Source: Mycolicibacterium tokaiense
Lineage (GTDB): Bacteria; Actinomycetota; Actinomycetes; Mycobacteriales; Mycobacteriaceae
Assembly (NCBI RefSeq): GCF_010725885.1
Contig: NZ_AP022600.1
Span: 3,658,001-3,722,000, forward strand
Direction: 5' to 3'
Length of the DNA: 64,000 nt
Part shown: positions 34,306 through 46,564 of the stretch, piece after piece
Numbering within the stretch: position 1 is the stretch's first letter
Layout: every line of letters starts with the position of its first letter
The notes under the pieces: model-generated
What the model saw: only the letters and a program-made list of their open reading frames with translations
Database searches by the model: none
What the model was told of the DNA's origin: nothing
Made by a program: the position numbers and the translations under genes

Positions 34306-34587
34306 TCAGCAGGCGCAACGCGGGTGACGGGGCCAGTGCCGGGACGTGATGGTGCTACTGGTCGCGTCGAATTCGAGTGTGGTGGACAGCGTGGTGGGCG
34401 GTCGTGGCCCGGGTGTGCCACGCATCGCCGCGAGCACCGTGTTGATCTGGCCCAGCGCCAGCGCGGCGGTGGCCAGCACGGTGGCCCGGTCTGCGGAGCC
34501 CACGGTGTCGCGCAGCTGCGCGGCCACCACCGGCCAGGCAGCGTCGCGGTCGCTGCGGTGCAGGTCGGCGCAGTCCAGGCAGCTGGT
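34306..34587 (-). pseudogene. 3' part of the Rv3196-like gene, split by the integrated element
   Basis: The last ~93 codons of a gene whose 5' part lies at 46002-46564. It reads (CT)SCLDCADLHRSDRDAA... to a TGA at 34306-34308. Joining the two parts across the CTGGT core gives one in-frame gene of 840 nt (279 residues) with the continuous sequence LVLPGLTSCLDCADLH. The intact protein resembles ThiF/YcaO-type cyclodehydratase-like proteins (Rv3196) with a zinc-type CxxC. The segment has no start of its own and is presumably not expressed. Confidence 0.85.
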
Positions 34588-34607
34588 AGCATCTTAGAGG
34601 GCACTAC
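34583..34607. other. attL of the serine-integrase element
   Basis: The core CTGGT (34583-34587) is shared with attR. Left of it is the host gene; right of it, AGAGGGCACTAC (34596-34607) is one arm of the phage-side inverted repeat whose partner is GTAGTGATGCCCTCT at 45970-45984. Confidence 0.75.
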
Positions 34608-34624
34608 TGCGAATCGGGGTCGAA

Positions 34625-36133
34625 ATGGCGTCTGACCGGTGCGTTCTCTACGCCCGCATCTCCTACGACCGCAGCGGCGAGCGAGTCGGGGTCGATCGCC
34701 AGCTCGTCGAGCTCCGCAAGTTGGCTAAGCAACGCGACTTCGAAGTGGTCGCCGAGGTCACCGACAACGACATTTCCGCGAGCAAGGATCTCCACAGGCC
34801 GGGTTACGAGAGCATCTGGGAGTTGGTGCGCGCCGAGCAGATCGATGCCGTCGTGGTGTGGCAGACGAGTCGCCTCACACGCAGCCGGCGCGAACGGGCC
34901 GCGGTGATTTCCGAGTTCGGCCGTCACCGTGTGGACGTGGTTGCCGTCAAGGGACCGTCACTGGAGTTGCGGACGGCCTACGGCCGTGGTGTGGCCGATC
35001 TCATGACCGCCTTCGACACCATGGAGAGCGAAGTGAAGAGTGAACGAGTTTCTGCCGCCATCGCAGATCTCGCTCGCAAGGGTCGCGCGTGGGGGCTGAC
35101 TCCATATGGCTGGGATAGCGCCGAGGCTGGCGTCTGGACGATCAACAGGCACGAGGCCGGCGTCGTCAAAGAGATCGTTGGGCGCATACTTGCGCACCAA
35201 ACGCTCAACTCCATTCAACGGCGGTTGAACGAACGCGGCGAGCCGGCGCCGGCCTTCGCGCTGTGGCAGAAGCTCCCCGAGGACCTCCGCGAGCAAAGGT
35301 TGGCCAAGCTGGTCGCCAAGGGGCGTGGCGTTCCATCCCGTCGGTGGGCCGACTCAACCATCCGTGCCATCGCGCTGCGCGACGCCAATGCAGGGGTGCG
35401 GGCCCGCCTCGATGACGCCACGGTGACCGCCGGCTGTTGGCCCGTCATCATCAAACGGACTCAGCACGAGCGTGTGCGAGCGATGCTCAGTGCACCGCAG
35501 CGCCGCGCGCACACCGGCCCGCGCCCCGGTGCTCGTCGGCATCTGCTGACCAGCGGCATTGGCCTGTGCGGGCCCTGCGGAGGTGTGCTGCGCGTGGCCA
35601 CGCGCACTGGGAGACGAACCGAGCAGCGCATCTATCAATGCGCGACGAAGGGCTGCACGGGGCGCCGGCAGGACCATGTTGACGCACTGGTGGAACGCGT
35701 CGTCATCGGCCGGCTGGCCGATCCGGAGGTGTGGGCACGCATCACCGCGTACTCCGACGACGGCGACGAGGCCTCACAGGCACTGATCGAGCGGTGCGAG
35801 GGTCTACAGCGCCGGCTAGACGACGCGGCCGACCTGTACGCGCAGGGCGGCATCACCGCGGCGCAGTTGCAGCGAATCACGGCGACGATCGCGCCCGACC
35901 TGGACATAGCGCAACGCGAGCGCGACGCGGCCTTACGTACCACCGACGTCACTGAGCTGGAAGACCTCGCCGGCCCCGAGGTGGCCACCCGGTGGGGGGC
36001 GATGGCGGTATCTCAGCGCCGCGCGGTCCTCGATGCCCTCGGCGTGACGGTGACGCTGCTCCCGCGCGCGAAAAAGGGCCCAGGATTTGAGCCCGAGACC
36101 GTGAAAGTTACTTGGATTCTGCAACCCAGCTAA
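34625..36133 (+). CDS. Large serine recombinase (integrase)
   Basis: 502 residues. The resolvase catalytic domain begins with CVLYARISYDRSGERVGVDR, catalytic Ser13, followed by DNDISASKDLHRPGYESI and LTRSRRERA. The recombinase domain (LTPYGWD...) and a zinc-ribbon (CGPCGGVL...YQCATKGC) follow, then a coiled-coil-rich C-terminus, as in phiRv1 and phiC31-type integrases. It lies 37 bases from the attL core, the usual place for a phage integrase. It would integrate alone and need a directionality factor for excision. Confidence 0.92.
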   Translation: MASDRCVLYARISYDRSGERVGVDRQLVELRKLAKQRDFEVVAEVTDNDISASKDLHRPGYESIWELVRAEQIDAVVVWQTSRLTRSRRERAAVISEFGRHRVDVVAVKGPSLELRTAYGRGVADLMTAFDTMESEVKSERVSAAIADLARKGRAWGLTPYGWDSAEAGVWTINRHEAGVVKEIVGRILAHQTLNSIQRRLNERGEPAPAFALWQKLPEDLREQRLAKLVAKGRGVPSRRWADSTIRAIALRDANAGVRARLDDATVTAGCWPVIIKRTQHERVRAMLSAPQRRAHTGPRPGARRHLLTSGIGLCGPCGGVLRVATRTGRRTEQRIYQCATKGCTGRRQDHVDALVERVVIGRLADPEVWARITAYSDDGDEASQALIERCEGLQRRLDDAADLYAQGGITAAQLQRITATIAPDLDIAQRERDAALRTTDVTELEDLAGPEVATRWGAMAVSQRRAVLDALGVTVTLLPRAKKGPGFEPETVKVTWILQPS

Positions 36134-36199
36134 CGCTGCCACCAGCAGTAGCTCACGGCGTATGTCTATAACTGTGACGCGATGTCATACCCAATGACG

Positions 36200-36229
36200 T
36201 TGCCGCAGGCGCAAACAAGTGCCTAGAGT
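36200..36229 (+). promoter_or_regulatory. Promoter of the element's early operon
   Basis: TTGCCG (36200-36205), an 18-bp spacer and TAGAGT (36224-36229). It lies about 87 nt before the small gene at 36316. An inverted repeat GTCAT-acccA-type ATGAC just upstream (36184-36198) may be a control site. Confidence 0.45.
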
Positions 36230-36315
36230 CATCGTTAACAAATACGAATGGCGACCATGGCGACCTGATGCATAGCAATGCCGCGCGGACGTCTCTCCGA
36301 AAAGGTGGGGTGTTT

Positions 36316-36516
36316 ATGACGGTGCAATCTGAAGTTATGGCCGTTGCGCGGGCTGTCCGCGACGGAAATCCCGAGGCGGAATCCGAAGCGCGGCAACGAC
36401 TTGCCGAAGCCAAAATTAAAGCTTATGTGCAGAAAACGCTCTCCGCGGCGCCGCCATTGAGCGACGATCAAATCGCCCGTCTCGCTGCGCTTTTGAAACC
36501 TCGGCGCCGGCGGTGA
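36316..36516 (+). CDS. Small accessory protein of phiRv1-type elements (possible excision factor)
   Basis: 66 residues. The C-terminal half (YVQKTLSAAPPLSDDQIARL...LLKPRRRR) is of a type I recall from small proteins encoded beside the integrase in phiRv1/phiRv2-like elements. In phiRv1 a protein from this position is the recombination directionality factor, so an excision role is possible. ATG 36316 follows AAGGTGGGG; the open frame extends 16 codons upstream without a better start. No DNA-binding motif is evident. Confidence 0.65.
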   Translation: MTVQSEVMAVARAVRDGNPEAESEARQRLAEAKIKAYVQKTLSAAPPLSDDQIARLAALLKPRRRR

Positions 36517-36643
36517 CTCCGCGGGTAAACGCTGCCGCGGCGCCGCGTCTGGCCGACAGGAACGGTGCCGCTACAGCTCACTCAACAACAACCGGGGGCT
36601 GTCGGGATATCGATATTGGTCCCGATCCTGGCGCGGTGACCTC

Positions 36644-38692
36644 GTGACGGCATACGAGACGATTGTCGGGAGGCTGAGCGACGATGGCAGGAAAGTTGTC
36701 GAGAAGGCCGACGGTCACGCGCAGGCGGAGTGCCCGGCCCACGATGATCACAATCCGTCGCTGTCGATCGCACCGCGCAAGGATGGCCGAGGGGTCGTGA
36801 TCTGTTGCCACGCCGGATGTGATTATCTCGACGTGCTCGACGCGCTCGACTTGTCCCCGCGCGATCTGTTCGACGACGAGAGTTTGCAGCGGGTCTATAG
36901 TCCGAGGCGCACATACGACTATCCAGATGGCCGAAAGGTGCACCGGAAGCCGGGTAAGTCGTTTCCGCAGATCGTTCCCACGGTTCGAAATCCCGACGGT
37001 CACAGTCTGTTTCATGCTGATCGTGTAGGCGGCGCCACTACCGTCTATTGGCCCGAGGGCGAAAAGGACGTCGAGGCCATTGAGGCGCTCGGTGCCGCGG
37101 CGGTCTGCTCGCCGATGGGTGCGGGCAAGGCGCACCGCGCCGATGTGGCGCCGCTGCAGGGCCGGCATGTGATCGTCGTGGCCGATCGAGATGGACCAGG
37201 GCGTAAACATGCCGACCAAGTGGTCGCGCTTCTGACCGGTGTCGCGGGATCGGTAACCGTGGTAGAGGCCAAGGTCGGAAAGGATGCCGCGGACCACATT
37301 GCCGCGGGTCTGGGTCTCGATGACCTGGTGCCTGTCGCGGCCGGGTCGCCGCCTGCCCTGGCCACGCTCGAGGACGCGCACGCGGTGTTCAAGCGCTGGT
37401 TCGGAGACGACTACGACACCGACGCTCTCGACGCTGTACTGGCGACGGCGGCAGTCGAACGGCTCGACGGCGATCCGCTGTGGATGTTGCTCATATCGGG
37501 TAGCGGCAACGCGAAGACCGAGACGGTCCAGTGTCTTGACGGTATTGACGCGATCGTCACCAGCACCATTTCGTCCTGCGGTGCGCTGCTGTCGGCGACC
37601 GCGAAGAAGGAAAGGGCCAAGGACGCAACCGGCGGGCTGCTGCGGAAATTGGAGCCGCGCGGCGTAATGGTCGTCAAAGACGTGACCTCGATTCTGTCGA
37701 TGTCCGGTGATGCGAAAGCCGAAGTGCTCGGCGCACTCCGCGAGGTCTACGACGGCCGCTGGAGCCGCAACGTCGGTACCGACGGCGGGCGCACTCTGGA
37801 ATGGGCGGGTCGCATCGCCGTCATCGGAGCCGTAACGACGGTGTGGGACCGGGCCCACTCGGTTATCGCGTCTATGGGAGACCGGTTCGTGCTGATGCGC
37901 ATGGATTCCACAACGGGGCGGCAGGCGGCTGGGCGCCAAGCCATCGGAAACACCGGTAGCGAAGTTCAGATGCGCGCTGAGCTTTCCGCTGCGGCAGCCG
38001 GCGTGATCGCCGGCATGGATACCACGACCATCGAGATCAGCGACGTCGAATCGGACGTGCTCCTTGCTGCGGCCGACCTGGTGACCAGAGCCCGCACCGG
38101 TGTCGATTATGACTACCGCGGCGACGTCATAGACGCCCACGCGCCCGAAATGCCCACGCGATTCGCGAAGCAGCTCGCGCAAGTGGTGCGTGGCGCCGTG
38201 GCGATCGGCATCGACCGGCCCGCGGCGTTGCGATTGGCCATTCGGTGCGCTCGCGACTCGATGCCGCCGCTACGGTTAGCGATCATCGACGACATCGCGG
38301 CGCATCCGAACGGCTCGACGGCGGAGGTCCGCAAGCGGTTGGGGAAGCCGCGCGCGACGGTCGACCGCCAGCTGCAGGCGTTGCACATGCTTGACGTGCT
38401 CAAGTGCGACGAGGAATCGATCACCTGGGGTGGAAAGGACGCGACTCGGTGGACATACCGCCTCGCCGATGGCATCGAACCAACAGCGCTCGACCCGAAA
38501 TCAGTACCAGATTTAGCGTCACGTACCCCTACGCCCCACAGAAGTATGGGGGGTCAGACCGACGAACCAAGTGATCTACACGCACCCCCCGCTAAATCTG
38601 GCACCGATCGGTGCGTCGATTGCGGCACACCGCTGACCGTGCCCGAGTCGGTCGCTCGCCAGCGATGCCGCGAATGCGCATTCGATGGCTGA
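36644..38692 (+). CDS. Phage-type primase/helicase-like replication protein
   Basis: 682 residues. A CHC2-like zinc finger is seen at residues 28-58 (CPAHDDHNPSL...CCHAGC). A TOPRIM-like domain follows (WPEGEKDVEAIEALG, then VVADRDGPGRKHADQV), and then a P-loop ATPase (GSGNAKTETVQCLDG, Walker A near 285). A winged-helix-like segment (NGSTAEVRKRLGKPRATVDRQL) and a C-terminal CxxC...CxxC zinc motif end the protein. It corresponds in position and type to Rv1582c of phiRv1. It likely replicates the excised element. The start is a GTG. Confidence 0.82.
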   Translation: MTAYETIVGRLSDDGRKVVEKADGHAQAECPAHDDHNPSLSIAPRKDGRGVVICCHAGCDYLDVLDALDLSPRDLFDDESLQRVYSPRRTYDYPDGRKVHRKPGKSFPQIVPTVRNPDGHSLFHADRVGGATTVYWPEGEKDVEAIEALGAAAVCSPMGAGKAHRADVAPLQGRHVIVVADRDGPGRKHADQVVALLTGVAGSVTVVEAKVGKDAADHIAAGLGLDDLVPVAAGSPPALATLEDAHAVFKRWFGDDYDTDALDAVLATAAVERLDGDPLWMLLISGSGNAKTETVQCLDGIDAIVTSTISSCGALLSATAKKERAKDATGGLLRKLEPRGVMVVKDVTSILSMSGDAKAEVLGALREVYDGRWSRNVGTDGGRTLEWAGRIAVIGAVTTVWDRAHSVIASMGDRFVLMRMDSTTGRQAAGRQAIGNTGSEVQMRAELSAAAAGVIAGMDTTTIEISDVESDVLLAAADLVTRARTGVDYDYRGDVIDAHAPEMPTRFAKQLAQVVRGAVAIGIDRPAALRLAIRCARDSMPPLRLAIIDDIAAHPNGSTAEVRKRLGKPRATVDRQLQALHMLDVLKCDEESITWGGKDATRWTYRLADGIEPTALDPKSVPDLASRTPTPHRSMGGQTDEPSDLHAPPAKSGTDRCVDCGTPLTVPESVARQRCRECAFDG

Positions 38693-39020
38693 GAACGGCC
38701 GACCCCGAGTAGCGGCGTTCCGCGTGGTCGATCAGGACGACGATCACCGAAACGCGGCCTGCCGCCTGGAGGGGGCGGGTCAGTTGGTGACGTCGACTGA
38801 GCTGCCCTCTGAGGTTCGCTGCCTGCCGCACGGGCTGGTTGCGCAGATTTGGTTGCGCGCCGCGCTAGCGCCACCGCAGCGGTTCGAGCCGTCGTCGCGT
38901 CCGGACCCGTTGGCGGTGCCGAGGCCAGAAGGGTTTCGGCGCCAATCGTGGGCGAACCTGGAGCCGGAAGCGCGCGCCGCCATCGCCGACGCGCTCAAAC
39001 CGGAAGAACGGAGCTTCTAA
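38685..39020 (+). CDS. Hypothetical protein of the satellite operon
   Basis: 111 residues, no recognised domain. The N-terminal third has a strand-like VAAFRVVDQDDDH; the rest is Ala/Pro/Arg-rich (RPDPLAVPRPEGFRRQSW), with a short helical end. It overlaps the replication gene by eight bases, so coupled translation supports it being real. A DNA-binding or packaging role would be a guess. Confidence 0.6.
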   Translation: MAENGRPRVAAFRVVDQDDDHRNAACRLEGAGQLVTSTELPSEVRCLPHGLVAQIWLRAALAPPQRFEPSSRPDPLAVPRPEGFRRQSWANLEPEARAAIADALKPEERSF

Positions 39021-39049
39021 CGGTGTTCCGCCAGAATAGGAGAATCACA

Positions 39050-39355
39050 ATGTCCGAAATTCAACCGCAACAGCTGAATCCGATACCGCTGGTGCTTCTC
39101 TCGGTCGAACTGGACGTGCAAATCGACCGAATTGTCGACCTTCTCGGCGTCCAGACAGTGTTTCGCGGCGCCACGGGTTTGCGGTGCTGTTCACCAGCGG
39201 CCGCCCTCGAACTGGTGCAGCGACGGGATGCCGAGGTCGCCGAGCGTGCGCGACAGCGGCGACGGGTGCCGGCGCGAGCCGATTCCGCAGTGAGTCAGCT
39301 CCGCCCAGAACTTGAAACGCGCCCCGTCGTGCGCCCTCCTGCGGGCGATGCCTGA
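39050..39355 (+). CDS. Hypothetical protein of the satellite operon
   Basis: 101 residues. TAGGAG at 39037-39042 sits seven bases before the ATG, a good ribosome-binding site. The middle (VLLSVELDVQIDRIVDLLGVQ) is amphipathic helical, and the C-terminal half is basic (ERARQRRRVPARADS). Its stop overlaps the next ATG by one base (TGATG). No family recognised. Confidence 0.6.
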   Translation: MSEIQPQQLNPIPLVLLSVELDVQIDRIVDLLGVQTVFRGATGLRCCSPAAALELVQRRDAEVAERARQRRRVPARADSAVSQLRPELETRPVVRPPAGDA

Positions 39356-39615
39356 TGACCTTCAAGGATGGATTCTGTGATTCCAGCGGCCTTTCGGTTG
39401 CAGACGAGGCCGCGCTGGGTGAAGCACCTTGGTTAGAGCCATATCTTGAGCCTGGTGACATCGGTCTGTCGAATGCAAGTGTGCGTTGGCAACGGGCTCA
39501 AGAGGAGTTGGAGACAGATCCAGACGTCCGGGCGATCCCGCGAGCGCGAACAGCGGGCGGCCTGCTGACGACAGAGCTAGACCCCTCCGGAGCGATCAAA
39601 GAGGCCAACCAGTGA
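39355..39615 (+). CDS. Hypothetical protein of the satellite operon
   Basis: 86 residues, acidic (SVADEAALGEAPWLEPYLEPGD), no recognised domain. It starts on the last base of the preceding stop and overlaps the protease gene by four bases (GTGA), so it is embedded in a tightly coupled operon. In phiRv1/phiRv2 the equivalent position holds small head-assembly or terminase-like proteins, but similarity is not evident to me. Confidence 0.58.
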   Translation: MTFKDGFCDSSGLSVADEAALGEAPWLEPYLEPGDIGLSNASVRWQRAQEELETDPDVRAIPRARTAGGLLTTELDPSGAIKEANQ

Positions 39616-40214
39616 GGCCGCCAGACAGGCCGGCTGTCCGTCGTCGGGACGTCGACGTCGAGCCGGGAGGCCGCTTCTTCCGGGCGCTGGCCGTACCTGT
39701 CGACCAGGTGTACATCACACGTGACGGTTCGGCCGGAATCATCGCCGAGATCTGGGATGCGGAATCGCTCCGGGAAATGCCAAGCGAAATACCGCTGTTG
39801 GTGCACCACTTTCGTGCGTCGGTTCCGATCGGCGTAGTCCATACCGCTGCTTTCGGACCTGCTGGCCTTTGGGTAGAGGGCGAATTGTTGGGCAGCGAGG
39901 GCGAAGTCGAAGGCTGGAGATCAAAATGGGCGGCGGGCGTCTACTCGGGTGTTTCGATCGGATTCAGGCCAAGTGGCCGCCAGATCTTCCGCCGATCGCC
40001 GGTCAGTGGCCAGCCGCCGTTGCTGCTTCGGCGGGGGTGCATCATCGAGGAGTTATCCGTGACGCAATGGCCCGCGTACTCCAAGGCCGGCGTGATGAGC
40101 GTCCGCCGGAAATCCATGAGGGCCGACGCCGCCGAGCGCGAACTCATTGAAACTGAACACCAACTAGCACAACTTGACATGTGGAATGCGAAACGGAAGG
40201 CGAAACAACTGTGA
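39612..40214 (+). CDS. HK97-type prohead protease
   Basis: 200 residues, the peptidase U35 (Caudovirus prohead serine protease) fold. Catalytic candidates are a His in PLLVHHFRAS (65/66) and Ser115 in YSGVSIGF, with the family's terminal ELSVTQWPAYSKAGV. It normally cleaves the scaffold of an HK97-fold capsid. In phiRv1 the capsid gene follows directly; here it does not, so its substrate would have to come from elsewhere. GTG start at 39612. Confidence 0.83.
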   Translation: MRPPDRPAVRRRDVDVEPGGRFFRALAVPVDQVYITRDGSAGIIAEIWDAESLREMPSEIPLLVHHFRASVPIGVVHTAAFGPAGLWVEGELLGSEGEVEGWRSKWAAGVYSGVSIGFRPSGRQIFRRSPVSGQPPLLLRRGCIIEELSVTQWPAYSKAGVMSVRRKSMRADAAERELIETEHQLAQLDMWNAKRKAKQL

Positions 40215-40267
40215 TCTGTCTCGGCGAGTGCGAGCTGGCCTACGTCGAGCGGGGGCGGCTGCAGTGA
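40211..40267 (+). CDS. Very small coupled ORF
   Basis: 18 codons (MICLGECELAYVERGRLQ) starting four bases inside the end of the protease gene and ending four bases inside the next gene (GTGA overlaps at both ends). The perfect chain of overlaps suggests it is translated, perhaps only to carry ribosomes through. Weakly supported. Confidence 0.35.
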   Translation: MICLGECELAYVERGRLQ

Positions 40268-40545
40268 CGGCACCACAATTTGTCCCGCCTGGCTCCCAGT
40301 TGTTGATCGCGCGCGATGCCGACGCGCGTGTCGTACTCGCTCGTCACCGTACCGAGGCCCGCCTGCAGCCGTTAATTGCCGTCACGACGGCCGGGGGAAA
40401 GCGCTTCGTGCTTGAATTGTCAGAGGGCGACTTTCGCAACCTTGCGCTCTCCATCAGCCAGTGGGCTGCCGCCGATGAGCAGCAGGTCGCGATGTGGTAC
40501 GAGGAACTAGGCAACGGCGAGACTGGCCGGCGGCTGAGACCATGA
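40264..40545 (+). CDS. Hypothetical protein of the satellite operon
   Basis: 93 residues. It has a beta-rich N-terminus (GSQLLIARDADARVVLARH, then LIAVTTAGGKRFVLELS) and a helical end (FRNLALSISQWAAADEQQVAMWYEEL). No family recognised. The GTG start is chained to the preceding ORF; its stop overlaps the HNH gene start by four bases (ATGA). Confidence 0.6.
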   Translation: MTAPQFVPPGSQLLIARDADARVVLARHRTEARLQPLIAVTTAGGKRFVLELSEGDFRNLALSISQWAAADEQQVAMWYEELGNGETGRRLRP

Positions 40546-41060
40546 CTCAACCACCACCCCGGCGACGGCGGGTGAACCTGCGACAAGGCGGCGCGACGCC
40601 ACGCAAACGCACACCGCCGGAGCAGCAAGCCCACTCGCAGCGGTATCCGGGTTCGCACCGGCGAATACGGGGGGAATGGCGGCTACTAGTCGAGCGCGGC
40701 GAATGTATCTGCTGCCGGTGTGGGAAACCCATTCCGGGATGGCAGGCCAGCGGTCGGGGTAGCGGATTCCATCTGGAGCACGCCGACGGCGTGGCGGGTC
40801 CGGTCTACCGCAGCCATCCTCGGAAGGTACCTGCGGCAGGGTATTTGGGCGTATCGCACAGCGCGTGCGGTGTATCTGCATCGCATCGATCGTCGCCGCG
40901 TAGGACCACTCGGCGCAGCACACCAACCAATCCACGGGCACGGGCGTTGGACTTCTTCGGGCCGGTCGAGCCCACACCACCACCGCCAAAGCGTCGACGC
41001 AGACAACAGCATCAGGACAAGCCGGCCTTAAAGTTCTTCGACGTTATCGACGATAAGTGA
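40542..41060 (+). CDS. HNH-endonuclease-like protein
   Basis: 172 residues. A basic Pro/Arg-rich N-terminus is followed by a zinc-finger HNH-type core: CICCRCGKPI, then the histidine pair in FHLEHADGV, and HSACGV further on. The layout resembles HNH proteins encoded next to terminases in phages and satellites, where they help DNA packaging. Last gene of the rightward operon; the region behind it has a hairpin. Confidence 0.6.
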   Translation: MTQPPPRRRRVNLRQGGATPRKRTPPEQQAHSQRYPGSHRRIRGEWRLLVERGECICCRCGKPIPGWQASGRGSGFHLEHADGVAGPVYRSHPRKVPAAGYLGVSHSACGVSASHRSSPRRTTRRSTPTNPRARALDFFGPVEPTPPPPKRRRRQQHQDKPALKFFDVIDDK

Positions 41061-41435
41061 ATCGTGGTGTTGCTGAACAGTAGCTGTTTAGCTAAATACT
41101 TGGGTGCAACAACGTGATTCGCGGGAGCAGCCTGACCTGATATGGACGTGACCACCGTCCTGGGCGTGGTGGTCAGTACGTCAGCATTAACGCCAGATAT
41201 GCTGTCATGCAAGGCATTTCAGGCTATCGACGCAAATAGACCAGCAATAGTTAGAGTACAAGCATGTCTTCGTCATGCGGGAACCGCCTTTTTTAGGGGC
41301 CCCTCGAAGCCTGGCACGTAAGTCCTGGCCTGATCTATTTCTCGCCGATTTTCCGCAAGGCGGCCAAGAGCAACGCTCACATTCGGTCGCATTTTCAGCT
41401 AGCGGCTAAGGTATTACCCGAGTCGGGATTGCTTG
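41061..41435. other. Intergenic region between phage module and cargo (375 nt)
   Basis: No gene seen. TGACCACC (41149-41156) pairs with GGTGGTCA (41168-41175) around an 11-nt loop, possibly a terminator between two convergent operons. A run CCTTTTTTAGGGG lies near 41288. Base composition shifts here from GC-rich phage genes to a more A+T-rich cargo block. Confidence 0.5.
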
Positions 41436-43202
41436 CTAAAGAGTCGGTGGCCAATCGTAGCCCTTCTGAGTGCAAACCGCGTTTAGCAGCAGATACTCTG
41501 GACGATCCTGCCAATCGTCCGGAAGTGCAACGGGGATAAGCGCAGAAGCCTCAATCATTCTGGTCGGCCTGGCCTTATCGGCCTCAAGGTTCAGCTGGCG
41601 GACCACCAGAGCCTGGTACAACGCCATGAGGATCCGCGAGGGCGGATCTTCTCGTTCGGCTTCTTCCGCGGCCTCGCGATACAGTCGCATTCCCTGCGCA
41701 ATGTCCCCGGACGCCAAGAAAGCTAGCCCGAGGGTCGCTCGGAAGACGTACATGTTCTCTGCAATCGGCTTCAGGACGCGAATAGCAACTTCCGGGCGAC
41801 CGGCCATTGCAAGAACATAAGCGGCGTTGTTTATGACCGCTTCGTCCCCGGGGAACTGTTTCAACGCATACTCAGCGATGACGGCCGCTTCGGACCACCG
41901 AGATAGCCCGATGCCCACGGCTAGTAGCGCTGCTGCGGCCGCCATGGGGTTCTCCGGCTCAAGTGAGAACCATCTGTTCGCGGCGGCGCCGGCGCCCTCA
42001 TTGTCGCCCTCCAGCGACGTGATGCGGTACTCGACGAACGCGCGTTGGATTGCCGTGAGGCTGTCTTCCACCCGCACGTAAGCTTCTCGAAGTGTTGACG
42101 CCTCATGGCGCTTTCGAGCCATCGATGCGAAATTCACTACAACGGCTTCGTTGTCTGGAAACTCCGCCATAAGGGCCGCGAGCTGCTGTGCTGCTTCATC
42201 GCGAGCTATACGCCCCAAGGAATGCCTGTATCGCACCAAGTTTGACCAAGTTCGACCCTGTGTGCCTCGATCTCCCTCGCGTTTTGCCTCTTCCGCAGCC
42301 CGCGTAAGTATGGATACTGCCTTACTTAGTTCGCCTCGCAAAATGAAAGCGCGTGCCTGTATTTCAAGTAACCTCGCATCGAAAATCACGCGTCTTGCCT
42401 TTAGAGATGCAATCTCTTGAGCCAGCTTTTCGCTGTCCTTGCAGGCTAGAAGAAGATCAAGATAGAGAAGGGCAGCGTCTCTCCTGCGTGGAGCAGTGCG
42501 AGTTGCGCGCAAGGCTGCGCGAGTCGCCCCACGCATTGCACCCAGATTCCAGAGCGAGAAGGACAGATTTAGTAACGAACTAGTGTCGCCTGCGTCTTCT
42601 GACAAAGCCTGCCGAAGAAAATGAGCTGCTTGCTGAAAATTGCCCGCACTTGCTAGTAGATAGCCGCGGAATGCCGCAACAGCGGCACCGTCGTAGGGTT
42701 CAAGTGCCTGCTGTGCTTCGTCGAGCTCGTTAAGCTCTTCAGCAACGCAGGCAAAAGTCACACTAAGTGACTTGGGTAAAGGAGCGCGGCGAAGCGCGTT
42801 GTAGGCGTATTTGGCGTCACCGAGACGCAAAAGGACTTCTGCTGCGATGCTTGCCGACGGGGCGTCTGTCCAAACTGGACCGTCCGTGCCCGTGGTGACG
42901 CAAAGGTCAATAGCTTCTCGAGCGGCCATCAAGGCTGCCTCTGTGTCACCTAGCGACGCTTCAGTCTGTGCCAGAGCGGAAAGTGTTGTTGAACTGCGCC
43001 TTGCCTGAATTCGACGCACTGCGTAATCGCGCGCGCGCTCAGCGTCATCCAAGATCTGTTGGCCGATGGTGGCGTGGGTCCTGAAGGAATCGCGTGAGGT
43101 GGTCATCGCGGGAACTTCGTAAGCGGGGGCTACTGGTCCCACCTTCGCGGATGATGCGTCGTCGTTCGGGCGAACAACTTCTAAGGTACCCAGAACGGTC
43201 AT
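41436..43202 (-). CDS. TPR-repeat protein of the kinase operon
   Basis: 588 residues, helical throughout, with many tetratricopeptide-like units such as LAQTEASLGDTEAALMAARE, GYLLASAGNFQQAAHFLRQA, LLNLSFSLWNLGAMRGATRA and NNAAYVLAMAGRPEVAIRVL. No enzymatic or membrane segment is seen. The last 40 residues (PVALPDDWQDRPEYLLLNA) break the repeat pattern. It starts directly after the kinase stop (TGAATG), so it is made with the kinase and is the natural candidate for its substrate or sensor. No close family is recognised. Confidence 0.72.
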   Translation of the reverse strand: MTVLGTLEVVRPNDDASSAKVGPVAPAYEVPAMTTSRDSFRTHATIGQQILDDAERARDYAVRRIQARRSSTTLSALAQTEASLGDTEAALMAAREAIDLCVTTGTDGPVWTDAPSASIAAEVLLRLGDAKYAYNALRRAPLPKSLSVTFACVAEELNELDEAQQALEPYDGAAVAAFRGYLLASAGNFQQAAHFLRQALSEDAGDTSSLLNLSFSLWNLGAMRGATRAALRATRTAPRRRDAALLYLDLLLACKDSEKLAQEIASLKARRVIFDARLLEIQARAFILRGELSKAVSILTRAAEEAKREGDRGTQGRTWSNLVRYRHSLGRIARDEAAQQLAALMAEFPDNEAVVVNFASMARKRHEASTLREAYVRVEDSLTAIQRAFVEYRITSLEGDNEGAGAAANRWFSLEPENPMAAAAALLAVGIGLSRWSEAAVIAEYALKQFPGDEAVINNAAYVLAMAGRPEVAIRVLKPIAENMYVFRATLGLAFLASGDIAQGMRLYREAAEEAEREDPPSRILMALYQALVVRQLNLEADKARPTRMIEASALIPVALPDDWQDRPEYLLLNAVCTQKGYDWPPTL

Positions 43203-44270
43203 TCATGCGCTCCTAGACTTCTTGTAGCTTGTTCGACGTGTCTCGACTGCGAGTCTGCGGCTCATAATGTCCGCACGAGCCAAAAGCCAGAGCAGCCCGT
43301 TGTCGGGTGCATAGCGCTTGCCGCGCCGGGGCCGCGGTTGCCGTTCAGACGGCACCGGGTCGCACAGTTGTTGTACAAGCCGTACCGCCTCCTGCCTAAT
43401 TGGGGGCGCCACCTCCGCGGCCATGATGTCGAGCGCTAGGCGGTACCTGGGCCGCAACGTAGACAGATCGCGAGGCGCACCGTTTCGAAACTCTTGTTCC
43501 CCTTCATTTCTCGCGTTTTGCCACGATCCGATAGCGAGAGCAGTCATCGGGTGCCCCGTCGCGAGCTCGACGAAGAGAGAACCTAGCCCGTAAAGGTCGG
43601 CGTTGCGGAAATCGGCCTCAGTACCTCCGCCTTGGCAGTAAAGATGTTCGGGCGGCGCGAATTCGGCGTCGCCGCGGCCGAAAACGTAGTTGATGGCCGG
43701 CACCGTTGCTGGTTCGGTCATGTCCTTCGACCTTCCCAGGTCGCCAATGCGCACCTGGGTGTCACCCTTGTGCACCATTAGCAGGCAGTTGCCACTCTTC
43801 AAGTCGCGGTGCGCAACCCTGGCGAGGTGCATTTGGTGGATGCCTTTTACGGCGCCCCGCCAGTGCGCGAGTCTCTCGGGCCAAGGCAACGCCGCTCGCT
43901 GAACTGGATCCAGAATCAGCTCATCGAGTGCGCCGGATGCCAGCGATAGAACATGGTACTTAAGGGCAATCGGGATGGATGTTCCATTCGGCGCCACTAC
44001 CATGTACTGGAAGGTGCCAGATTCGATCCAATTCACGACACTGGAGCAGCGATTCAGCTTATCGAGAAGGGTTCCTTCTCGGTCGAACTCAGCGGCTGCG
44101 TTCGCTATACCGTTCGGTACGAGTATCTTCATCGCAAATCGAGAACCGCTCGACTGCTTCGTAACTTCGAACACAAGACCAAAGGTTCCGACGCCGATGC
44201 AAGAGTTAAGCAGGTACCCGTCCACGTCCTGACCCAACAGACTTGGAATCCAGGTTCGCGCGTTGCTCAT
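43203..44270 (-). CDS. Cytosolic Hanks-type Ser/Thr protein kinase
   Basis: 355 residues with a full kinase core: glycine loop GVGTFG (26-31), ATP lysine K48 in FAMKIL, a candidate helix-C glutamate in EFDREGTLLD, catalytic loop HRDLKSGN (154-161) and DLG (177-179) in place of DFG. The activation segment ends in APPEH. There is no transmembrane helix or external sensor domain, unlike most mycobacterial Pkn kinases. It overlaps the HTH gene by four bases and is followed at zero distance by the TPR gene. In a phage element such a kinase suggests a regulatory or defence role. Confidence 0.82.
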   Translation of the reverse strand: MSNARTWIPSLLGQDVDGYLLNSCIGVGTFGLVFEVTKQSSGSRFAMKILVPNGIANAAAEFDREGTLLDKLNRCSSVVNWIESGTFQYMVVAPNGTSIPIALKYHVLSLASGALDELILDPVQRAALPWPERLAHWRGAVKGIHQMHLARVAHRDLKSGNCLLMVHKGDTQVRIGDLGRSKDMTEPATVPAINYVFGRGDAEFAPPEHLYCQGGGTEADFRNADLYGLGSLFVELATGHPMTALAIGSWQNARNEGEQEFRNGAPRDLSTLRPRYRLALDIMAAEVAPPIRQEAVRLVQQLCDPVPSERQPRPRRGKRYAPDNGLLWLLARADIMSRRLAVETRRTSYKKSRSA

Positions 44271-44569
44271 TCAGTAGACTCTGGTCCATAGCGCTCTCGA
44301 AGGTGTGCAATTGCGTCAGGATGGGCGCGAAGAATCTCGACGATGTCCGCGGGGACGTCACCCTGAGCGAGCCATATGACGTCTGCGGACACGCCGTAGT
44401 ACGAGGAAAGACGTTTGGTGACTTCGGGCGCGAGCCCGCGCTGGCCGCGTTCAAGTCGCGACAGTTGCGACGGCGCGACGCCAATGTCTGCGGCGGCGCT
44501 ACGCAGTGATCTGCCCTGCTGACGCCGGAGCTCGCGCAGCATATTTGCCGTTTCGGGGGTGGAAGCCAC
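44267..44569 (-). CDS. XRE-family helix-turn-helix regulator
   Basis: 100 residues. HTH at residues about 16-55 (RRQQGRSLRSAAADIGVAPS, QLSRLERGQRG); the C-terminal part (VIWLAQGDVPADIVEILRAH) is typical of phage-type regulators that sense or dimerise. GTG 44569 is chosen because TACACT (44577-44582, minus strand) lies seven bases upstream with a -35 at optimal distance, giving a leaderless message; an internal ATG at 44542 would lack a ribosome-binding site. Likely autorepressor of the HTH-kinase-TPR operon. Confidence 0.75.
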   Translation of the reverse strand: MASTPETANMLRELRRQQGRSLRSAAADIGVAPSQLSRLERGQRGLAPEVTKRLSSYYGVSADVIWLAQGDVPADIVEILRAHPDAIAHLRERYGPESTE

Positions 44570-44576
44570 ACAAACG

Positions 44577-44608
44577 AGTGTATGCACTGTTGCCGATTCT
44601 GGCAACAG
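44577..44608 (-). promoter_or_regulatory. Promoter and operator of the HTH-kinase-TPR operon
   Basis: On the minus strand: -35 TTGCCA (44600-44605), 17-bp spacer, -10 TACACT (44577-44582), seven bases to GTG. A perfect 8-bp inverted repeat CTGTTGCC-N6-GGCAACAG (44587-44608) covers the -35 and half of the spacer, exactly where a repressor would block polymerase. Confidence 0.7.
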
Positions 44609-44928
44609 CGCCGACAGGATTCTACACCATCTCGCCGTACGTGTGGCGGCAGGCGCACCATGTGGGATGAAGTCGTATAGCCCACAGGTTGTGCCCGTTA
44701 AGGATGGCAGAGGCGGGCGGAGGCAGCAGGGGCGGTAGGGGGTCCCTCGCGCAGGCGACGCCACTACGTGGCCCACGCCCTCGATGGTTGGCTTCTTGCA
44801 GTAGCTCCCTCGGCAAGCGCGGTTCTACCGGCTTGGTGGTGGCGAACTGTCTGCCTCGGCGAGTTTCCATGACTTCCGGCTGACCCCGCCAAAGCGGGCA
44901 TCGCGAGTCCCGCAATTCGCAAATCGAA
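44609..44928. other. Intergenic region (320 nt)
   Basis: No convincing gene. Near 44885-44898 a small hairpin CCCGC-CAAA-GCGGG may terminate the membrane-protein gene. Open frames here lack family features and codon bias. Confidence 0.4.
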
Positions 44929-45843
44929 TCAAGGCGAGTCTTTCGGTACCGAAGTAATCGAACGAGGGACGGCGGATAAGAAGGTTGAAAGAATTGGAAA
45001 TCGAAGGATATAGACAGCCATTATGGCAGAAATCACGACAAATACCCAGGATTCTAATGGTGATCGCCGTCCGCCGTTATTGGCATCCGTGACCGCTTTG
45101 GCAAAATCGTGCTGACCTTGTAACTGGCCCAGATCGAAACTGGACGCATTTACCAGATGAGGCTCGCTCAGAATGTCGTCGCGGATGACAATCCAAGCTT
45201 GAAAAACAAAGATCGCAAAAGCTATGATCGTAAAGATTGTGAATATTTTGAGCTTTCTACGCAGATGTTTGAAGCGAAGAAACCACCTCTCGCTAACGGC
45301 GTCGAGTGCGTCGTTAGATAGGTCGATTCCTCTTTTCGAGCTGGCGACTTCTGCGCCGCGAATTGTTCCGACGAGCTTCGCTCTCCTCGGGGACGTGTGA
45401 AGTAATTCAACGATAAATCCGTCAGAGGGATCCAAGAAGTCGAACGATAGTCTGGCGCACTGGGGATCGTCTGAGCCAAACTCACACTTCGCGTCGATCT
45501 GTTCACGACTAACTGTGAGCACGCGGGCGTGCAAAACGACAGCGTCCGATTCGAGCTCCAGGCGTAATTGGTCGGTTGGCACGATGTCGGACCCCCGGAC
45601 TGTATCGCCGCGCGCGTTCCACATAGCGAATCGCGTTCTGCTTACGCTGAGAATCTTGCTTCCGTCAAACTCCATGTTGAGCCGGTCGAGGATGCCATCG
45701 TCCGAATCGATGATCACGTCGAAGTCAGCTGCTGACCGCAGGTCCGGCCGCTGCCGTCCCCGGCGCGCGAAGAACCATGCTGCTGGGATGCCGATAACCG
45801 CAATGACGAAGCTTGCCCAGCCCAAAATCACGCTCGAATCCAT
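44929..45843 (-). CDS. Three-helix membrane protein, cargo of the element
   Basis: 304 residues. One N-terminal membrane helix (about 6-26, LGWASFVIAVIGIPAAWFFA), then RRGRQRP (positive inside). A soluble domain follows (30-195, with SFDFLDPSDGFIVELLHTS), then two more helices (about 203-225 and 268-290). The soluble domain is probably cytosolic. No family recognised. It is separated from the kinase operon by 360 nt and lies next to attR, a usual place for phage-borne defence or exclusion genes. DNA is notably A+T-rich for this chromosome. Confidence 0.68.
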   Translation of the reverse strand: MDSSVILGWASFVIAVIGIPAAWFFARRGRQRPDLRSAADFDVIIDSDDGILDRLNMEFDGSKILSVSRTRFAMWNARGDTVRGSDIVPTDQLRLELESDAVVLHARVLTVSREQIDAKCEFGSDDPQCARLSFDFLDPSDGFIVELLHTSPRRAKLVGTIRGAEVASSKRGIDLSNDALDAVSERWFLRFKHLRRKLKIFTIFTIIAFAIFVFQAWIVIRDDILSEPHLVNASSFDLGQLQGQHDFAKAVTDANNGGRRSPLESWVFVVISAIMAVYILRFPILSTFLSAVPRSITSVPKDSP

Positions 45844-45874
45844 GGTCCCCCTCGTCGGCCTGAACAGACGCGGC

Positions 45875-45901
45875 TGACAACGTTGATCGCCGACGTTGTC
45901 A
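45875..45901. repeat. Inverted repeat upstream of the membrane-protein gene
   Basis: TGACAACGT (45875-45883) and ACGTTGTCA (45893-45901), a perfect 9-bp repeat with a 9-nt centre, 32 bases before the gene start. It could be an operator or an attachment-site arm. Confidence 0.55.
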
Positions 45902-45969
45902 CCCCCGCGGCCTATCGAACCACAACAGCCGTTCGGCTATCTGACGACGATAAGAATCGTGACATGCGG

Positions 45970-46006
45970 GTAGTGATGCCCTCTGACAGTCGCCAAGACA
46001 ACTGGT
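45970..46006. other. attR of the serine-integrase element
   Basis: GTAGTGATGCCCTCT (45970-45984), then 17 bases, then the core CTGGT (46002-46006), then host gene sequence. Together with attL it reconstructs an attP with inverted arms and an attB inside the Rv3196-like gene. Confidence 0.75.
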
Positions 46007-46564
46007 CAGACCCGGCAGCACCAGCGGACCCACCAGGCCAACTCCGTCGCGAACCCGGACCTGCAGGTGCGGTAACCGGGTTTCGCGCAGCTCCCGCAGC
46101 AACCGCGGGTCGGCCACCAGGTAGTCGGTCAGCACCACCAGATCCGTCACCCCGGGTCGCACCGAGGCGTGCGGCTGGCTGCTGTGCTTGACGCGGGCGC
46201 CGCAGCGAGTCAGGCCGTCGAGGATCACATCGGCCAGGGGTCCGCGGCCGTGCACTCGGATCGCCGGTGCGCGACCGGTGCGGGCGCTGGGGTGGGGCCG
46301 CGCCACCCCGGCACTCACCAGGGCACCGATCAACACCGTGAGGTCGTCGGCACCGAGCTCGCCGTGGCGGGCTGCCTCGCGGGCCAGGTCCTCCAGGCCG
46401 GCGGTGGCCTGCATCCGGCGCAGCACCGCGGCCAGCGCGACGGGGGTCAGCCCGCCGGGCGGCCGAACGGTGACGGCTCGACGCGGATCCCAGCCCACCT
46501 GAACGGTGCCATCCGGGCGCAGCAGCACCGGCATCGCGGGGTCGAGGCTGTAGCGGCCGGCCAT
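46002..46564 (-). pseudogene. 5' part of the Rv3196-like cyclodehydratase-type gene, split by the element
   Basis: Starts ATG 46564 (MAGRYSLDPAMPVLLRPDGT). Up to the core it encodes about 187 residues of the host gene, including the Rossmann-like AIRVHGRGPLADVILDGL and TDLVVLTDYLVAD and ending LVLPGLTSC. Translation would continue into element DNA for about 34 codons, stopping at 45899. The fold is that of ThiF/TOMM-type cyclodehydratase proteins such as Rv3196. With the 3' part at 34306-34587 it forms one exact open frame, so excision would restore the gene. Confidence 0.85.

Follow-up and report, generated by a model that had tools for sequence, protein, structure and literature searches.

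A predicted autorepressed HTH–kinase–TPR operon, carried by a phage-satellite-like element in Mycolicibacterium tokaiense, is a candidate defence module of Actinomycetota

We describe a three-gene operon of Mycolicibacterium tokaiense that encodes, in order, a helix-turn-helix (HTH) regulator, a Ser/Thr protein kinase and a tetratricopeptide repeat (TPR) protein. The operon was found in a stretch of 64,000 nt (contig NZ_AP022600.1, positions 3,658,001 to 3,722,000; hereafter the window), where it lies inside an integrated element inserted in a host gene. The best explanation of the comparative evidence is that the trio is an autorepressed kinase–TPR defence module, of the abortive infection or toxin–antitoxin kind; we regard this as somewhat better than an even proposition, with a probability of roughly 0.55. 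As part of that explanation, the trio would have spread horizontally among the Actinomycetota and is carried here by a phage-satellite-like element.

The window sequence and its list of open reading frames (ORFs) place the operon on the minus strand, from 41436 to 44569. The original prediction, which was made from the DNA alone, described three tightly coupled genes, and the junctions were as described: the HTH stop codon and the kinase start codon overlap as ATGA, and the kinase stop codon abuts the TPR start codon as TGA-ATG. The GTG start of the HTH gene at 44569 was picked by alignment with relatives, and the predicted ORF extends further upstream. The three products matched the Pfam families HTH_3 (E-value 1.2e-12), Pkinase (5.7e-23) and TPR_19 (2.2e-8). 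Hydropathy exceeded 1.6 over no 19-residue stretch of the HTH, kinase or TPR protein, in agreement with the prediction of a kinase lacking a membrane helix. The catalytic residues of the kinase are kept in 31 or 32 of 32 aligned rows, and its C-terminal helix (residues 326-353) holds an invariant W328 and D334. The predicted structure of the TPR protein is a plain superhelix without a second large domain. It had also been proposed that an A+T-rich composition and a DLG motif in place of DFG set the kinase apart. The cargo block is indeed A+T-richer (G+C 0.577, compared with 0.644 for the element backbone and 0.673 for the window), whereas DLG is the norm of the family, with leucine in 28 of the 32 rows and phenylalanine in four, and was ruled out as a special mark of the window kinase.

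The trio was found in identical order and direction at 13 or more other actinobacterial loci, a minimum count that comprises the matches listed from a contig scan and from genus and class genome searches. The hosts are M. hubeiense, M. aichiense, Myceligenerans, a Propionibacteriaceae metagenome-assembled genome, Asanoa, Microbacterium, four Acidimicrobiia contigs and three further genomes (G537, G515 and G652). Genes at these loci were called by a script that uses G+C content by codon position. The TPR genes of loci L012 and L014 were missed by tblastn and are present in the ORF calls (that of L012 was also detected by PADLOC), and the TPR match at L013 is partial. The large TPR partner of the original prediction thereby proved to be a constant companion of the kinase, the two genes being together in 14/14 loci. 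Full-length members are even in size, at ~355-360 aa for the kinase and ~586-594 aa for the TPR protein. A protein search returned 137 kinase clusters, 120 of them listed, and 39 TPR clusters among the best 8,000 candidates. When the TPR clusters were compared with 119 of the listed kinase clusters, 22 of the 39 had a longest contig equal in length to that of a kinase cluster, an indication that the two genes share contigs.

The family is rare and patchily spread. With the window's genome included each time, matches were obtained in 3/396 genomes drawn from the genus, 2/397 from the order, 4/394 from the class and 1/396 from the phylum; these draws overlap, and five candidates were scored per genome. 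The second order-level match is a distant kinase–TPR pair (G1390). A further draw, with up to 13 candidates per genome, gave matches in 2/149 genomes, both of them already known loci. Pairwise distances among the three proteins correlate across 13 loci (0.95, 0.86 and 0.91; 0/5,000 permutations), as expected if the unit travels together. The mycobacterial kinases do not form one clade: the approximately unbiased test gave p 0.0156 for a group that included kinase P0020 and was chosen after the first tree had been viewed, while the first test, on four named mycobacterial kinases, gave p 1.7e-5 with P0020, which is nested among them, left out. These phylogenetic comparisons lend moderate support to horizontal transfer of the trio among its hosts.

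The promoter and operator-like repeat of the original prediction are both real, and are conserved across all 14 loci. A single palindrome lies 5' of the HTH gene at each of them, in the exact form GTTG(C/A)C-N6-G(G/T)CAAC at 13 and in an imperfect form at L007. The -35 box lies within the palindrome (TTGCCA at nine loci, TTGACA at three, TTGCCC and TTGCCG at one each) and a spacer of 17 or 18 bp lies between it and a -10 box of the form TANNNT. By-eye reading placed the -10 box 5-7 nt from the HTH start codon across loci, a gap so short that the transcripts should be leaderless. All 14 exact palindromes in 358,798 bases were located in trio promoters, compared with one exact palindrome in 28,000 shuffled upstream regions. 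The M. tokaiense genome, a single contig of 6.33 Mb, contains one zero-mismatch copy of GTTGCC-N6-GGCAAC, that of the trio promoter; when up to one mismatch was allowed there were 38 matches per strand, versus 23 for the reversed pattern. Within the window, the zero-mismatch copy is again the only one, and with two mismatches there were 14 matches against 5.07 expected. In M. aichiense (L093) there are two palindrome copies 5' of the HTH gene, the second one upstream.

Conservation of the trio operator reaches from mycobacteria to Acidimicrobiia. In the latter, three loci that are closely related combine the half-site GTTGAC with the likely recognition helix VNPSYLSRVENG, while in most other loci this helix is VAPSQLSRLERG or nearly so. 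The paired changes fit co-evolution of the HTH protein and its operator, though they represent one change only. From the position and conservation of the palindrome, we strongly infer that the HTH protein represses its own operon.

A link to defence is suggested by profile matches in PADLOC-DB 2.0.0, in which PDC-M71 is a phage defence candidate consisting of a kinase (A) and a TPR protein (B). Among the PADLOC profiles, the window kinase scored highest with PDC-M71A (E-value 2.5e-24, 84.3 bits, profile positions 79-318 of 352), nearly equalled by mad6 in second place (7.9e-23, 79 bits). The window TPR protein matched PDC-M71B alone (7.2e-15, 52.7 bits), over positions 327-466 of 515 and not over the full length of the profile. 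By comparison, G1390 is a real PDC-M71 pair, scoring 378.2 bits for the kinase and 364.1 bits (positions 1-485) for the TPR protein.

The genomic neighbourhoods of the trio provide a second line of evidence. In 9 of 13 examined loci, a mobility, defence or toxin/antitoxin gene lies within 10 kb, an uncontrolled count in which the window integrase is included and L013 is left out. Locus G515 is flanked by an AbiEii toxin, PDC-S09 and PD-Lambda-2_B, together with a HepT-like RNase, a tyrosine integrase and a Mutator-family transposase. The neighbour at G537 is a UG32 defence reverse transcriptase and that at L012 is PDC-S20 (KAP). The remaining neighbours are a Fic protein and a PIN protein (L011), a zeta toxin and a TrwC fragment (L010), a TrwC relaxase (G321), a tyrosine integrase (L008) and a SocA-like antitoxin (L014). 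The G537 reverse transcriptase gene (L097:15886-17571) stands immediately after the trio, and its product has an N-terminal HTH_17 domain.

A controlled count was made with PADLOC at an E-value of 1e-20 on 148 neighbour ORFs from 12 loci (all except L013 and the window). The ORFs matched 24 profiles, of which 12 are of reverse transcriptase type and are best explained by the single G537 gene; RecD corresponds to the TrwC helicase, mad3 is noise, and the source gene of one MzaA match was not found among the proteins rescanned. Five defence genes could be traced, at 3/12 loci. The sole PADLOC match of the control ORFs was mad3; this control comprises 127 of 188 ORFs from 7 of 11 regions and is drawn from G321, G515 and G537 only. 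The view of the trio as a phage-borne signalling or defence system is supported in part: similarity to PDC-M71A and PDC-M71B, and defence genes beside some relatives that did not occur in this small control set, favour defence, whereas general carriage by phages is not borne out.

Several observations count against a defence module that moves with phages. Scans of IMG/VR with the kinase and TPR profiles returned no family members, and tblastn against phages and plasmids brought up nothing beyond generic kinases, at <28% identity. The virus-scan negatives are limited in reach, as a pattern scan for the element's integrase also gave no matches although a related integrase, 55% identical, is present on the IMG/VR contig L111, to which the primase had led; pattern scans therefore overlook real relatives. 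With generic kinases at most in these searches, phage carriage as a general rule, the broader pattern of the original prediction, was not supported. Locus G515 alone accounts for three of the five defence genes that were traced, and only 3/12 loci were positive. In addition, the kinases of L009 and L011 matched mad6 above PDC-M71A, while their TPR proteins still matched PDC-M71B; given how close mad6 and PDC-M71A also score for the window kinase, the kinase alone cannot fix the relationship.

Finally, no gene for mobility, defence or a toxin lies within 10 kb of the trio in four of the 13 examined loci (L007, L009, G652 and G013). These four loci suit a different explanation, in which the trio is signalling cargo of an ordinary kind: a kinase that responds to stress or nutrients, scaffolded by the TPR protein, which mobile elements moved by chance and which has no connection with phages. 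Eukaryote-like kinases are common in Actinomycetota, which fits this explanation too. It sits poorly with the rarity and patchiness of the trio, with its own repressor and operator, with defence neighbours that are missing from the control set and with a TPR protein that matches PDC-M71B alone, and we consider it decidedly unlikely.

The proposal that the operon is cargo of a phage satellite, here an integrated satellite-like element, is supported by the serine integrase, the primase-like and weakly prohead-protease-like genes and the split host gene (Table 1). The element, of serine integrase type, extends from ~34587 to 45993 (11.4 kb). The N-terminal part of the interrupted gene, which we take to be a homologue of Rv3196, lies at ~45993-46564 and the C-terminal part below 34587; the gene is intact in 8/8 other mycobacterial genomes searched. 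Both junctions have ACCAG(C/T)TG(C/T)CT followed by GG or TGG, and this short common sequence matches the expectation for a serine integrase core. Neither a capsid protein nor a terminase was recognized among the scanned element ORFs with Pfam, PHROG and NCBIfam, and the element is called satellite-like on account of the missing capsid gene. Mycobacterial candidate phage-inducible chromosomal islands are defined in PMC10654092 by an integrase and a major capsid gene; here the integrase is present and a major capsid match is absent among the ORFs scanned.

Table 1. Features of the HTH–kinase–TPR operon, its promoter and the surrounding element, in window coordinates
Feature	Position	Strand	Basis
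Integrase-side junction ACCAGCTGCCTGG; C-terminal host-gene part starts here	34575..34587	-	Comparison with 8 uninterrupted relatives
Large serine integrase (502 aa)	34625..36133	+	Pfam Resolvase 9.5e-27; PHROG 95 integrase 1.4e-88
Small ORF (82 aa)	36268..36516	+	PHROG 24177 9.9e-6; 39% over 56 aa in L111
Primase-like protein (682 aa)	36644..38692	+	PHROG 6088 DNA primase 4.6e-21
Prohead-protease-like ORF (242 aa; uncertain start)	39486..40214	+	TIGR01543 2.9e-7, below cut-off; PHROG 617 2.9e-7; PHROG 80 6.8e-7
188-aa ORF with paired Cys	40494..41060	+	No Pfam, PHROG, PADLOC or NCBIfam matches
TPR protein (588 aa); model is a superhelix of TPRs throughout	41436..43202	-	Pfam; structure model
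Ser/Thr protein kinase (355 aa), soluble, extra C-terminal helix 326-353	43203..44270	-	Pfam; PADLOC; alignment; model
HTH_3 regulator (100 aa, GTG start)	44267..44569	-	Pfam; homologues 5' of kinase at 13 other loci
-10 box TACACT, 7 nt 5' of HTH start codon	44577..44582	-	Upstream comparison and sequence
Operator-like palindrome GTTGCC-N6-GGCAAC	44589..44606		Upstream comparison; window and genome scans
-35 box TTGCCA within palindrome, 17 bp from -10	44600..44605	-	Upstream comparison and sequence
Membrane protein (304 aa); cargo gene apart from the trio	44929..45843	-	No Pfam match; 22 homologues
Distal junction ACCAGTTGTCTTGG; N-terminal host-gene part ends here	45993..46006	-	Junction comparison

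The trio sits between the protease-like and 188-aa ORFs (the latter presumably HNH-like) and the distal junction. On L111, the same host gene is occupied, a primase segment is 68% identical over residues 242-660, a terminase is present and other minus-strand genes precede the distal junction. Judged from the two elements compared, the region before the distal junction resembles a slot for cargo beside the attachment site. The lack of a recognized capsid and terminase could also mean that the trio is decaying and has no function in this host, where it would be a mere passenger. We regard this as very improbable, as all three reading frames are open at full length and the catalytic residues and operator are intact.

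Some of the 22 homologues of the second cargo gene, which encodes the membrane protein, are in Rhodococcus, Micromonospora and Kutzneria, and tblastn found no match to it near other trios. The M. tokaiense genome also holds a second relative of the element primase (L155; G000:C1:5226303-5227436), with 51% identity over residues 242-621 and one internal TGA, which is probably part of a decayed second satellite-like element. Proteins resembling the element primase (L123-L144) occurred in 17 of 148 genus genomes, including that of M. tokaiense, and many of them match its first 240 residues only.

If the trio is a defence module, we envisage that the HTH protein would bind the palindrome, cover the -35 region and keep expression of the operon low. 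The TPR superhelix would bind the kinase, perhaps through the C-terminal helix that carries W328 and D334, and would both silence it and act as a sensor. A phage product might then free or activate the kinase, which would phosphorylate host or phage proteins and thereby stop growth and phage production; operon expression would rise when the HTH protein is lost or phosphorylated. The exact form of the steps after repression (the hold by the TPR protein, the phage trigger, arrest by phosphorylation and derepression) is less certain. A specific version, a phosphorylation-based immune switch with a dedicated repressor, in which the superhelix senses a phage protein and frees a kinase toxin that in addition relieves the repression of the operon, is less likely than not.

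A related alternative is that the trio is a lysogeny or addiction module resembling KKP (PfkA, PfkB, PfpC), in which the kinase, as toxin or as signal, would control the resident element or prophages that share the host and would stabilize the element, defence being at most a by-product. Autorepression is typical of such modules, and the trio indeed lies in an integrated element, beside the distal junction. In KKP, which belongs to Pf and other prophages and is the best studied precedent, the kinases are toxic, the phosphatase neutralizes them and a phage replication protein is the trigger (PMC11341870); KKP shows that prophage kinases can serve both element control and defence. However, relatives of the trio lie near a relaxase, a tyrosine integrase, a reverse transcriptase or in plain chromosome, which argues that no single element is served, and Pfam recognized neither a phosphatase nor a second kinase in the operon. 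We consider this alternative unlikely. KKP and the trio share a Ser/Thr kinase on an integrated phage-like element that is proposed to be a toxic effector (PMC11341870), whereas KKP has two kinases and a phosphatase and the trio combines a single kinase with a TPR protein and a repressor. The trio is not a KKP member, since it lacks the second kinase and the phosphatase; it may nevertheless work in a similar way, with the TPR protein in the neutralizing or sensing role.

The locus is a small actinobacterial system in which conservation defines the parts, the junctions and the operator, and this makes repression, toxicity and defence directly testable in Mycolicibacterium smegmatis. The findings also suggest that a mycobacterial satellite-like element has a cargo slot next to its distal attachment site, and that the PDC-M71 candidate is part of a wider kinase–TPR group.

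Compared with known systems, the trio resembles several in part. Like RptR-type repressors, its HTH protein is a small first-gene product predicted to repress the promoter of its own, putative defence operon; RptR, however, is no standard HTH protein and binds short repeats located at the -10 (PMC12255303), whereas the trio has an HTH_3 protein and one palindrome over the -35. The kinase domain is shared with Stk2 and PD-T4-6, to which PADLOC gave matches down to 3.3e-18 for PD-T4-6 and of 6.8e-5 for Stk2; these are single-gene systems, and the trio kinase is accompanied by TPR and HTH genes in 14/14 loci. The PD-T4-6 kinase gene had only a very mild phenotype in one study (PMC11514479). The BREX PglW profile, also suggested for comparison, was not among the best 25/30 PADLOC families of the window kinase, although the L012 relative matches it at 1.7e-7. 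As for MAD6 of MADS, the window kinase scored 46.2 bits with the NCBIfam model, against a cut-off of 460, and PADLOC found no other MADS gene in the operon. The mycobacterial kinase PknG likewise combines a kinase with TPRs, as a single polypeptide with a rubredoxin-like part; here there are two proteins, without a rubredoxin-like domain in Pfam.

The closest likeness is to PDC-M71. PDC systems are presented in PMC10855318, PMC12988326 and PMC11811056 as unvalidated candidates from 'guilt-by-embedding', and our literature search found no paper that names PDC-M71 and no description of an HTH–kinase–TPR trio. The claim that the trio is not a named system was therefore nearly right, the qualification being that an unpublished candidate is a distant relative. 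In both, a kinase gene of ~355 aa is followed by an adjacent TPR gene in the same order. The kinases show full-length profile similarity (hhalign probability 99.8%, E-value 2.1e-29) and the TPR proteins partial similarity (96.1%, 3.4e-9). PDC-M71 differs in the length of its TPR protein (509 aa versus 588 aa in the window), and the G1390 pair lacks the upstream HTH gene and conserved operator that the trio has. On these profile comparisons, the trio family is a distant sister of PDC-M71; the kinase–TPR kind had already been predicted, and what is new here is a sister family with its own putative repressor and conserved operator.

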